From the IMG/VR virus record IMGVR_UViG_3300021963_000283, positions 1 to 39,461 of that record: a stretch of 39,461 nucleotides of DNA. One strand, given 5' to 3'. Source of the stretch: a virus. Positions within the stretch are counted from its first letter, which is position 1, and every line of letters begins with the position of its first letter. Shown here in pieces: positions 23,320 through 38,018 of the stretch. The translations under genes were made by a program, and so were the position numbers. The notes beneath the pieces were generated by a model. It did no database searches. It was not told the origin of the DNA and saw nothing but the letters and a program-made list of their open reading frames with translations.

Positions 23320-23766
23320 ATGGCTACGCTAAAATCAACTAATATTAATTCTGGAGACCCAGTAACAGCAGATGTTATTAATAATATTATATTAGATCTA
23401 AATGAATTAAATAAATCTACAGCAGCATCATTTTCCCTCACACTCGGAAGTACTGGTGCAGGAACTGGTAACGGAAATACAACTGTTTCTCAAAAGGTAT
23501 ATAGCACAACAGTTTCTAATGTTTCTGTAGATCCTAGCAAAAAGCCTTCAGGTAAAGGTTCATGGACATTTCCCGCTAAAGCTTTTACGCAAGCCCCTAA
23601 ATGTTGGATTCAGGTTAACACTAATGGGGTAAGCCTAACTGAAGCTCAGTTAAGAGTTCATCCAGTTATTACATCTATCAGCACAACAAAAATGACATTT
23701 GAAGTTAGAAGTGGAAATGGCGCTGCTTCAGCAAAAATGAATTTTGATATTTTTGCAGTAGAGTAA
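23320..23766 (+). CDS. Putative tail appendage protein with C-terminal beta domain
   Basis: This is a 148-residue protein. The N-terminal ~35 residues (S-G-D-P-V-T-A-D-V-I-N-N-I-I-L-D-L-N-E-L-N) are the helical attachment segment often seen in short phage fibre or adhesin proteins. A Gly/Thr linker follows, then a beta-sandwich-like domain ending M-N-F-D-I-F-A-V-E, reminiscent of H-type-lectin-like receptor-binding ends. It is the last structural gene before the regulatory junction at 23785. A strong AAGGAG Shine-Dalgarno sets the start. Receptor binding is inferred. Confidence 0.55.
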   Translation: MATLKSTNINSGDPVTADVINNIILDLNELNKSTAASFSLTLGSTGAGTGNGNTTVSQKVYSTTVSNVSVDPSKKPSGKGSWTFPAKAFTQAPKCWIQVNTNGVSLTEAQLRVHPVITSISTTKMTFEVRSGNGAASAKMNFDIFAVE

Positions 23767-23784
23767 AATAAATATAATATACTA

Positions 23785-23812
23785 TTGACAAGCTAAACCG
23801 ATATGTTACAAT
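23785..23812 (+). promoter_or_regulatory. Strong promoter at structural/replication junction
   Basis: A perfect -35 TTGACA (23785-23790), a 16-base spacer and extended -10 TGTTACAAT (TACAAT 23807-23812) give a predicted start near 23819. It is the best -35/extended -10 combination in the window. It is overlain by a dyad and followed by a hairpin. Confidence 0.8.
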
Positions 23813-23822
23813 TACTGTAACA
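23804..23822 (+). promoter_or_regulatory. Operator-like dyad over -10 and start site
   Basis: The perfect inverted repeat TGTTACA-N5-TGTAACA covers the whole -10 element and the predicted transcription start. Seven-base arms with five-base spacing suit a dimeric helix-turn-helix repressor, which would block RNA polymerase directly. No second copy was spotted by eye. Confidence 0.55.
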
Positions 23823-23824
23823 TC

Positions 23825-23849
23825 AAAGTCACGTATCCGTGACTTTTTT
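23825..23849 (+). terminator. Intrinsic terminator/attenuator hairpin
   Basis: AAAGTCACG (23825-23833) pairs perfectly with CGTGACTTT (23838-23846) around a TATC loop. The stem ends in a run of six Ts (23844-23849). It could end transcription coming from the tail genes. It also lies within ~30 bases of the start of the promoter just upstream, so it could attenuate that promoter. Confidence 0.75.
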
Positions 23850-23866
23850 ATATATTAAGGTAGACA

Positions 23867-24667
23867 ATGAGTAACGATTTAAAATGGATGATATCATCCG
23901 ACCAGCAGTTTCCGTATCAAGATGACAAGATGATTGCCCTGTGGTTTAAGGTGATGAAGTGGTTTAAGCCAGATGTCGTTGACTACCTTGGTGATACAGA
24001 TGATCAGGCATGCTATAGCAAGTACACGGAAGGCAGATCAGCAGAATTTTTAAATTTTCATAAAACAGACAGCAAAGATTTAATTGTACCAATGATGCGC
24101 CACGAGGCAAAAGGTGCTAGAGATTTTTATGCCAAGACAAGAGATATGCTTCCAGACGCTCAACTTTTTTCTGCATTAGGAAATCATGATGTTCGTATTT
24201 TTAATTATGTTGATGCAAAGCTTCCAGATTATATTAATGAAGTAACACCAGAAGCGCTATGGAGTTTAGATTCTTTAGGCTATGAGTATATTCATTATAA
24301 TGAATTGCCTAAGCGTCGATTTGGAGACATCCACGTACATCACGGACTTTCAATTGCGGCAACTGGATCTGTTCGTAAAGATATGGAAGATCTACAGGTA
24401 TCATTAATTAGAGGGCACTCACACAGAATTGCTTCGCATCTTGTTACTTATGAATTAAGAAACGGCGGAGAAGGAGAAACACTTCGAGGCTATGAACTCG
24501 GACACATGTGTGATGAAAAGGGCCCAGGAATGAAGTACATGCAGCACCACGACTGGCAAAAAGGATTTGCTATCGCACATATTGTCAATGATTATCCACA
24601 TATACAGATGATCCACGTAGCGCCTGATTATTCATGCGTTGTTGACGGGAAGCTGTTTACACTATAA
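23867..24667 (+). CDS. Calcineurin-like metallophosphoesterase
   Basis: This 266-residue protein has the metallophosphoesterase motifs in order: S-S-D12 (metal Asp), L-G-D43, G-N-H-D (105-108), H-H-G (158-160) and G-H-S-H-R (183-187). Two metal ions should be bound. The substrate cannot be read; phage members include nucleotide phosphatases, phosphodiesterases and DNA-end nucleases. It is the first gene after the promoter/operator/hairpin cassette, with AAGG upstream of ATG, so it probably heads the early region. It ends in a TAATG overlap with the next gene. Confidence 0.85.
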   Translation: MSNDLKWMISSDQQFPYQDDKMIALWFKVMKWFKPDVVDYLGDTDDQACYSKYTEGRSAEFLNFHKTDSKDLIVPMMRHEAKGARDFYAKTRDMLPDAQLFSALGNHDVRIFNYVDAKLPDYINEVTPEALWSLDSLGYEYIHYNELPKRRFGDIHVHHGLSIAATGSVRKDMEDLQVSLIRGHSHRIASHLVTYELRNGGEGETLRGYELGHMCDEKGPGMKYMQHHDWQKGFAIAHIVNDYPHIQMIHVAPDYSCVVDGKLFTL

Positions 24668-24852
24668 TGTGGTGCAGAAAATGCGGTGGTAGAGTTTTTG
24701 TAGATAGAGTTTTCTCACAAAAGCTTCATGTAGAGGTATTCTGTATTCTATGCGGAAAAAGAAGTATGATTAATAAAGAGACGAGTGCTTTCGGTAAATG
24801 GCTAGACAAAAAAGAAACAGCAAACTCAAAAAATTACGGTATTTCTTCTTAA
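24667..24852 (+). CDS. Zinc-ribbon microprotein
   Basis: This 61-residue protein begins in the overlap with the phosphoesterase stop. C-R-K-C (3-6) and C-I-L-C (26-29) form a zinc ribbon. The C-terminus is charged. It overlaps the next frame by 55 bases. The overlap contains an in-frame A-AAA-AAT heptamer at 24828-24834 that could allow a -1 shift into that frame. Function is unknown. Confidence 0.65.
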   Translation: MWCRKCGGRVFVDRVFSQKLHVEVFCILCGKRSMINKETSAFGKWLDKKETANSKNYGISS

Positions 24853-25280
24853 ACGATAAACTACATAAGGTTTTGAGGTCATCAAGGGCTAAAGATGAAT
24901 TAGTTGCTTGGTGCTATCCAGATCATAAAAGAGTTATGTACTCATACTCTCAGGTTGAAAAGCATATGGAAAATGCCTACAGCATGAAAGATGTTTCTTC
25001 TCTTTTAAATAAACACACAGTTACTCTTCATGATTATATTTTAGAGGGGAAAATTAAAGCCCCGTCAAAAATGTACCCTATAGGTGATCCAGAAAACAAA
25101 CATTGGTCTAAATATATGTTTAGTCAAAAAGATATTTTAAGCCTTCATGAGTTTATATTAGACTCAGGACATTCTAAAAACGTTCCATCAAGAGCAGAAT
25201 TATTGGGTCTTTTCAAACACAACATTATATTGTATACTAAGACAGACAGCGGATTTGTACCAGTGTGGAAGGCGGATTGA
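24798..25280 (+). CDS. Winged helix-turn-helix (MerR/excisionase-like) protein
   Basis: This is a 160-residue basic protein. Residues ~57-120 (Y-S-M-K-D-V-S-S-L-L-N-K-H-T-V-T-L-H-D-Y-I, G-K-I-K-A-P, then K-Y-M-F-S-Q-K-D-I-L-S-L) have the helix-turn-helix plus wing pattern of MerR/excisionase-type DNA-binding domains. A DNA-binding regulator of phage genes is likely. The ATG lies inside the preceding gene and has no convincing Shine-Dalgarno, so its translation may depend on coupling or a frameshift from that gene. Confidence 0.65.
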   Translation: MARQKRNSKLKKLRYFFLNDKLHKVLRSSRAKDELVAWCYPDHKRVMYSYSQVEKHMENAYSMKDVSSLLNKHTVTLHDYILEGKIKAPSKMYPIGDPENKHWSKYMFSQKDILSLHEFILDSGHSKNVPSRAELLGLFKHNIILYTKTDSGFVPVWKAD

Positions 25281-29069: not shown

Positions 29070-29105
29070 AGGTGGGGTTAGTCTATTGACTAGCCCCACC
29101 TTATT
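29070..29105 (+). terminator. Intrinsic terminator after SSB gene
   Basis: A 14-base arm, AGGTGGGGTTAGTC (29070-29083), pairs with GACTAGCCCCACCT (29088-29101) with one G-U pair around a TATT loop. TTATTT follows. It is the longest hairpin in the window. Its loop and 3' arm contain the -35 of the next promoter. Confidence 0.88.
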
Positions 29106-29121: not shown

Positions 29122-29328
29122 ATGATTTCATACGAAATTCCTGATCCATTTGAAACCTTTGTTGCTAATAAATACAAAGATTATGTTGGAGCAGTATATG
29201 ATTTTTTTGCTAGAGAGTGGCATATGAAATGCGGTTGCTGTAAAGAAGAGTTATATGCACCAAATAAAAAAACTATGATAAAGATTAGACTGTATCATAC
29301 TAGAAATGAATGCTTAGGCGGATACTAA
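29122..29328 (+). CDS. Small Cys-rich hypothetical protein
   Basis: This 68-residue protein contains H-M-K-C-G-C-C-K-E-E-L-Y and later Y-H-T-R-N-E-C, a possible zinc site. The frame is open back to a TTG at 29086, but that codon lies in the terminator loop upstream of the predicted transcription start. The ATG at 29122 is therefore chosen. No Shine-Dalgarno is present, in keeping with a leaderless mRNA. The stop overlaps the polymerase start (TAATG), implying coupled translation. Confidence 0.6.
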   Translation: MISYEIPDPFETFVANKYKDYVGAVYDFFAREWHMKCGCCKEELYAPNKKTMIKIRLYHTRNECLGGY

Positions 29329-37121: not shown

Positions 37122-37450
37122 TGTTAAGACCAGTGTTTGAAGATGTAAGAGATTTTAATTGTAGCGATCTATATTTAAAGGCCGTGGGAGCACCTGCAGG
37201 TAATAAAATATGGTCTGCTTGTCATGATATTGCACATATGTTAATTGAAAAAAATATATCCTATGGAAACTCAGCGCTAGAGCCAGCAAGAATATTTTCA
37301 ACGGCGGACTCCACAGAACAATTAAAAGTACGTATCGATGATAAGTTAAATAGAGTTAAGAATAATCAGGGATACGCTGGAGACAACGATATTGACGATT
37401 TAATAGGATATTTAATACTTTATAAGATTGCTAAGGCTAAATCTGATTGA
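37121..37450 (+). CDS. DUF1599-like nucleotide-associated protein
   Basis: This 109-residue helical protein contains K-N-I-S-Y-G-N-S-A-L-E-P-A-R-I-F, R-I-D-D-K-L-N-R-V-K and D-N-D-I-D-D-L-I-G-Y-L-I-L-Y. These are the spaced motifs of the DUF1599 family, thought to handle nucleotides and often found in phages with nucleotide metabolism genes. An AGGAGG Shine-Dalgarno precedes its ATG. The substrate cannot be inferred. Confidence 0.6.
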   Translation: MLRPVFEDVRDFNCSDLYLKAVGAPAGNKIWSACHDIAHMLIEKNISYGNSALEPARIFSTADSTEQLKVRIDDKLNRVKNNQGYAGDNDIDDLIGYLILYKIAKAKSD

Positions 37451-37475
37451 CATTTTAGTCGACTGAAAGTATAAT
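37447..37475 (+). promoter_or_regulatory. Perfect consensus promoter, leaderless terS
   Basis: TTGACA (37447-37452), exactly 17 bases, then TATAAT (37470-37475). Both hexamers are perfect consensus. The ATG at 37482 is the predicted transcription start (+7 from the end of the -10). The spacer contains the palindrome AGTCGACT (37457-37464), a possible repressor site. Confidence 0.85.
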
Positions 37476-37481
37476 AGACTA

Positions 37482-38018
37482 ATGAGCGAAATAGAATTGT
37501 CAGATCGTTTTGACAGAATGAATAGAGTTGTTGAAGAACTCTTAAAGGGAAGTACCCCAACACAAATTGCAACGATTACTGGCATACAGAGAAAAGAAGT
37601 TCTTGAGCTGATAGACGACTGGAAAGATGTCGTACATAATGATAGCAACATAAGAGACCGTGCAAGAGAAGCAATCTCAGGTGCGGATCAGCATTACGCA
37701 ATGCTTATAAAAGAGTCTTGGAAAACTGTTGAAGATGCAGATCAAGCAGGCCAACTTGCTGTTAAGTCTGGAGCCTTAAAGCTTATTGCAGACATAGAGG
37801 CAAAAAGAATAGGAATGCTACAGTCAATTGGTGTTCTAGAAAATAATGAGATTGCATCACAAATTGCAGAAACAGAAAGAAAGCAAGATATCCTTGTTAA
37901 AATATTAAAAGAAGTAACTTCCACTTGCCCTAAGTGTAAAATGGATGTTGCAAAAAGATTATCTCAAATTACTGGGGTAATTGAATCAGTCCCAGTAGAG
38001 GAAGCTGATGTCGTTTGA
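37482..38018 (+). CDS. terS: Terminase small subunit
   Basis: This 178-residue protein has an N-terminal helix-turn-helix (~22-47, G-S-T-P-T-Q-I-A-T-I-T-G-I-Q-R-K-E-V-L-E-L-I), a long helical oligomerisation region (~60-145) and a C-terminal C149-P-K-C152. The HTH would bind the packaging site and the oligomer would deliver DNA to the large subunit, whose gene starts 11 bases before this stop. The single C-x-x-C knuckle near the end could form an intersubunit zinc hook, which is unusual. The start is the leaderless ATG directly after the consensus promoter; there is no Shine-Dalgarno. Confidence 0.75.
   Translation: MSEIELSDRFDRMNRVVEELLKGSTPTQIATITGIQRKEVLELIDDWKDVVHNDSNIRDRAREAISGADQHYAMLIKESWKTVEDADQAGQLAVKSGALKLIADIEAKRIGMLQSIGVLENNEIASQIAETERKQDILVKILKEVTSTCPKCKMDVAKRLSQITGVIESVPVEEADVV

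Follow-up and report, generated by a model that had tools for sequence, protein, structure and literature searches.

A conserved promoter and start-proximal hairpin as a putative control element at the tail–replication gene junction of freshwater viruses

The DNA analysed here (hereafter, the window) is a record of 39,461 bases from a freshwater bacterial virus, possibly a fragment, and the element of interest sits between its tail genes and its DNA-replication genes. The gene upstream of the element, which comes after the tail genes, ends at position 23766. The first gene after it, on the plus strand at 23867–24667, encodes a metallophosphoesterase (phrog_221, E 4e-52) with homologues in cultured actinophages. 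This is followed by a small protein, an HTH protein encoded in the same gene run (24798–25280, plus strand; phrog_9440), a DnaB-like helicase (25888) and a primase (27289); a long open frame at 29310 resembles the alpha subunit of DNA polymerase III. A homologue of the HTH protein is annotated as MerR-like HTH in Streptomyces phage TunaTartare. The original prediction placed all parts of the element before the first replication gene; they do lie at the structural/replication junction, although the adjoining gene is that for the metallophosphoesterase and the replication genes are found further along. The best isolated-phage matches to the metallophosphoesterase gene are from Rhodococcus and Streptomyces phages, in which the order tail, metallophosphoesterase, HTH protein and helicase is also found, and the host is therefore likely to be actinobacterial. 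A scan of bacterial genome contigs in search of the host gave no relative.

The -35 hexamer TTGACA can be read directly at 23785–23790 on the plus strand, and is followed by an extended -10, TGTTACAAT, at 23804–23812 (plus strand), comprising TG at 23804–23805 and TACAAT at 23807–23812. In the window this is a match of 11 of 12 positions plus the TG, with a spacer of 16 nt that falls within the 16–18 nt separating the -35 and -10 of SigA promoters. From this geometry, transcription would be expected to start on the plus strand at 23819, 7 nt past the -10. Covering both the -10 and the expected start is the inverted repeat TGTTACA-N5-TGTAACA (23804–23822), with arms at 23804–23810 and 23816–23822 and ATTAC between them, which is the sole zero-mismatch match within the 39,461-nt window. 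Soon after the start comes a plus-strand hairpin of 9 bp, AAAGTCACG-TATC-CGTGACTTT (23825–23846; arms 23825–23833 and 23838–23846, loop TATC), and a run of six T at 23844–23849, also on the plus strand, the first three of which pair with AAA of the hairpin. The letters and coordinates of the promoter with its overlying perfect dyad, and of the hairpin with its T-run (together 23825–23849), thus agree with the original prediction. A ribosome binding site, AAGG, is located at 23857–23860 on the plus strand, and the metallophosphoesterase ATG is at 23867. No tRNA is found at the site. In 400 first-order simulations, a promoter matching at least 11 of 12 positions with a stem of at least 8 bp at its start arose 0.0025 times per simulated window, against one in the real window. 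A divergent promoter on the minus strand using the right arm of the dyad was considered and rejected, as the sixth-position T of its -10 is, judged by eye, not kept in the relatives (TACAAA, TACACC, TACAAC).

Elsewhere in the window, the expected start of a perfect TTGACA-17-TATAAT promoter (37447–37482) coincides with the A that opens the ATG at 37482. The gene concerned directly precedes a terminase-like reading frame, and its mRNA may have no leader. The sequence TTAGTC...GACTAA flanks the -10 of this promoter, and in the Rhodococcus phage NiceHouse (L311, approximately 1985–2025) GTTAGTC...GACTAAC is found round a -10 upstream of an ATG.

Relatives were gathered by similarity to the metallophosphoesterase protein (the best 80 of 535 matches, the best 80 of 577, and 9 more via the Weasels2 protein), and the sample is accordingly numerous but made up of viruses that are related to one another. 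Among the best matches of the protein-only searches, 105 of the 107 distinct upstream sequences carry a TTGACN/TANNNT promoter, the two without it (L397 and L403) being of the Rhodococcus phage type. The -35 is exactly TTGACA in 98 of these 105 promoter-bearing sequences and the spacer is 16 nt in 99, while a hairpin is present in about 100 of the 107, placed 6–8 nt past the expected start. In nearly all relatives the hairpin begins 9–14 nt past the -10, and its base lies 17–22 nt upstream of the ATG. When sequences are weighted by gene clusters, conservation of the -10 region is 0.76–1.00 versus 0.30–0.73 in most of the spacer; the -35, the -10 and the T-run are nearly fixed, and most of the spacer and the stretch past the T-run drift. 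The arrangement of promoter and start-proximal hairpin is, on this comparative evidence, kept across hundreds of related viruses, which argues that the site is a real and deeply conserved control element, made of known parts in a very compact and unusual order. It marks the boundary between late and replication genes in roughly one hundred diverged gene clusters.

A scan with the hairpin sequence and T6 returned matches that, with one exception, all lie at this junction. Since such a scan is biased towards T6 it was not used for judging the T-run, which was instead recounted on the loci that protein similarity alone had identified. We also considered whether the hairpin is a general trait of promoters in these viruses and rejected this, as in two long relatives the remaining TTGACA/TANNNT sites have no start-proximal hairpin with a T-run. 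In five loci (L351, L352, L360, L388 and L389) the strong hairpin is missing though the promoter is kept; here an HNH gene lies upstream, as checked in L351 and L388. Two further pairs of loci share promoters of their own. The diverged L425 and L434 have in common TTGACA...AGTATACT followed by a conserved G-rich stretch, AGGGGGGTCGGGGGGTCAGTAAATC, in which no reading frame is apparent, and this stretch is possibly a non-coding RNA. In L428 and L429 the common promoter ends in TTTAGTAGAAT directly before ATGAATAAAAAACTAATA, leaving a very short leader.

The predicted fold of the hairpin amounts to -10.7 kcal/mol (z -6.3), and none of 200 shuffled sequences folds as well. Among the relatives, 96.8% of the cells in the alignment of the stem are paired and four pairs have changed on both sides. 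At the second inner pair most sequences have T-A, and 16 have C-G through double changes; the single-sided changes at this pair comprise five U.G and no C.A. Both sides of it change in all four independent pairs on the tree, although four alone cannot reach significance. The covariation score is reached by none of 500 shuffles, a control that does not keep relatedness. Compensated pairs together with U.G wobbles, and never C.A, indicate that the hairpin acts as RNA, and it is, as judged from these substitutions, under RNA-level selection. In the predicted leader fold both AAGG and AUG are unpaired, which removes the candidate explanation that the leader masks the ribosome site. The picture is that of a leader stem-loop with an open ribosome site, on an RNA whose 5′ end would be the one expected from the promoter. 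The promoter might alternatively yield a stable regulatory RNA of about 30 nt ending near 23849, which the geometry permits. However, the loop and flanks, which would have to pair with targets, vary freely, and no matching RNA family is found in Rfam; we consider this reading very improbable.

The 9-bp GC-containing stem directly before six T has the form of an intrinsic terminator, with a score of +23.0, and 148 of the 156 distinct upstream sequences score above zero. In the protein-only set, conservation of the T-run is 0.88–1.00 versus 0.32–0.67 immediately 3′ of it; in the freshwater clade the T-run is shown, at the level of sequence, to be under selection. It is lost or much shortened, with the hairpin retained, in L333, L339, L341, L345 and L039; the terminator T-run is thus not kept in all relatives that bear the element, and it is weak in Streptomyces phages. 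As the T-run is kept in most relatives, termination is probably one of the roles of the hairpin; as the hairpin persists in lineages without the T-run, it is unlikely to be the only one.

Termination could conceivably be the whole of it, with the hairpin merely ending tail transcripts, as the original prediction had offered as an alternative, and the promoter lying there by chance. Early polymerases would then get past it, since termination is inefficient at a hairpin this close to the 5′ end. The terminator score, the conserved T-run and the position of the hairpin, 58 nt past the stop codon of the last gene before the element, are all in keeping with this. A terminator at a gene boundary would, however, be expected upstream of the promoter, and the constant distance to the ATG, the hairpins without a T-run and the hairpins of the Streptomyces phages are left unexplained. 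While the ending of tail transcripts is compatible with the data as one function, we regard it as unlikely to account for the element by itself. Two more terminator-like hairpins, with stems of 13–14 bp, are seen in the window at 757–788 and 29070–29101, and the former shows the usual order of terminator, promoter and gene.

The inverted repeat over the -10 was originally proposed to be part of a switch, in which a repressor binds the dyad and an antiterminator or small RNA is controlled by the hairpin. The promoter and hairpin of this proposal are real and conserved, but no positive evidence for a repressor at the dyad or an antiterminator at the hairpin emerged. In its more specific form, the dyad would be the operator of a dimeric phage repressor or autoregulator, such as the 24798 HTH protein, that shuts the promoter later in infection, a reading compatible with any reading of the hairpin. 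The dyad is perfect and overlies the -10, pairing between its own two arms exceeds that between swapped arms (5.62 versus 4.76, sd 0.14), and some lineages alter both arms, from GTTAC..GTAAC to GCTAC..GTAGC. Against this, the dyad is absent from several lineages whose promoter and hairpin are the same (L108, L371, L398–L401 and others). Its axis and half-site spacing shift between lineages, so that the sites do not form an operator of fixed spacing, which argues against a rigid dimer site. Co-change of the arms on the tree (about 4 cases with, 1 against and 6 without; p 0.375) is not significant, and the 24798 HTH gene is equally present in Streptomyces and Rhodococcus phages that have no dyad at the junction. 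An operator function is therefore doubtful, and the dyad is the least secure part of the element. The idea that the dyad folds as an RNA hairpin when transcripts read through it was rejected, as its changes (8 double, 9 C.A and 6 T.G) display no wobble preference.

The antiterminator half of the switch corresponds to promoter-proximal attenuation of the lambda Q or AlpA kind, in which most transcripts would stop near +31 as long as no phage protein has modified polymerase at the promoter. Polymerase could be held there by a sigma-dependent pause at a TANNNT motif over the start. Such a motif, TAACAT, is found on the plus strand at 23818–23823 (approximately -1 to +5) within the right arm of the dyad, and may be a pause site of this type. 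TANNNT occurs in 59 of 79 distinct initial stretches versus 24.9 in shuffles, a frequency to be read in light of its overlap with the dyad arm and of common descent. Its position is near that of the lambda pause element, at +1 to +6 (PMC4604602). The order promoter, terminator, gene and the conserved T-run fit attenuation as well, and AlpA is known to bypass a terminator that sits just ahead of the first gene (PMC7969949). On the other hand, the stretch between -35 and -10 is the most variable part (0.30–0.73, save for AATATG beside the -10) and offers no conserved block as a loading site. No antiterminator gene was identified, the candidates being only the HTH genes of what is possibly a fragment. 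The hairpin is kept without a T-run in some lineages, Streptomyces relatives have weak T tails, and the hairpin would lie 6 nt from the 5′ end, far nearer than in lambda. We consider attenuation with antitermination possible but improbable. Its most compact version, a short-leader antitermination checkpoint with start, TAACAT pause, terminator and ribosome site within about 70 nt, is quite unlikely; if true, a polymerase-modifying protein would gate the replication block of a large group of freshwater actinophages at its first 30 nucleotides.

Among cultured phages, the same junction layout is found in Comrade, TunaTartare, Emma1919, Beuffert, Moab, Annadreamy and relatives (Stanwilliamsviridae, Loccivirinae). 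Here TTGACA or TTGACT is followed by a recognisable -10 in most and then by a strong GC-rich hairpin (-18 to -23 kcal/mol). These Streptomyces Loccivirinae resemble the freshwater viruses in gene neighbourhood, in the TTGACN promoter and in the placement of the hairpin, 17–21 nt upstream of the ATG. They differ in that the hairpin has another sequence, the T tail is weak (terminator scores range from -12 to +23), there is no dyad, and the element is unannotated in the records examined. An HNH gene lies upstream of the element in the Streptomyces phages, a context shared by the freshwater loci L351, L356 and L388, and L356 has the promoter and a short hairpin with no T-run after it. The Streptomyces layout and L356 suggest that the promoter and leader hairpin are ancient and the strong T-run a later addition; it is also possible that the Streptomyces-phage and freshwater layouts arose independently. 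The nearest cultured relatives, the Rhodococcus phages NiceHouse and Trina, have neither promoter nor hairpin at the site, and no such element is seen in the Weasels2 sequence that was inspected.

We favour, giving it about an even chance, the reading that the hairpin belongs to the leader of the replication mRNA and doubles in freshwater viruses as an intrinsic terminator of tail transcription. The leader role, which did not figure in the original prediction, is suggested by the constant distance between hairpin and ATG, and the additional terminator role by the conserved T-run of the freshwater viruses. Transcription of the replication genes would enter through the element. RNA would start at about 23819 from a promoter of the SigA/sigma-70 type, and the 9-bp hairpin would form six nt into it, followed by about 20 unpaired nt with the ribosome site and then by the start codon. 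Such a leader would serve protection or regulation: the 5′ stem-loop may shield the end of the mRNA from decay while leaving the ribosome site open. In the freshwater viruses the hairpin and T-run would halt polymerase coming from the tail genes, and probably also stop a share of the polymerases started at the promoter. Counting against the favoured explanation, the strong conservation of the T-run suggests that in the freshwater clade termination weighs more than the leader function; the loci that keep the promoter without a strong hairpin, and the lack of both in NiceHouse and Trina, also count against it.

Literature searches for an earlier description of the element returned nothing relevant, and comparative data suffice to make the case for it, in viruses that have not been grown in culture. 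The natural series of relatives, with the T-run present, weak or lost and the hairpin present or lost, bears on how hairpins act near a transcription start. Freshwater hosts are hard to grow, though the layout is shared by isolated Streptomyces phages, which makes bench study feasible.

Stem-loops in 5′ leaders are familiar, the T7 gene 10 leader being one example. Those at the 5′ terminus that stabilise mRNA include E. coli ompA and papA and the B. subtilis aprE leader, as described in works cited in PMC3997798. The freshwater element is similar in having a hairpin near the 5′ end and an open ribosome site after it, but its hairpin also carries a terminator T-run, and stabilisation is putative here. 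The lambda late leader is about 190 nt long, whereas the leader here would be about 30 nt. The lambda PR'/Q system (PMC6606751, PMC4604602) shares with the element a strong promoter, a -10-like motif near the start and a terminator before the genes, and differs in that no Q-binding element is seen here and that the genes driven are those of replication rather than late genes. The alpB promoter of Pseudomonas aeruginosa likewise has an intrinsic terminator immediately upstream of the first operon gene; the AlpA site there lies between the -35 and -10 (PMC7969949), a stretch that is not conserved in the viruses described here.
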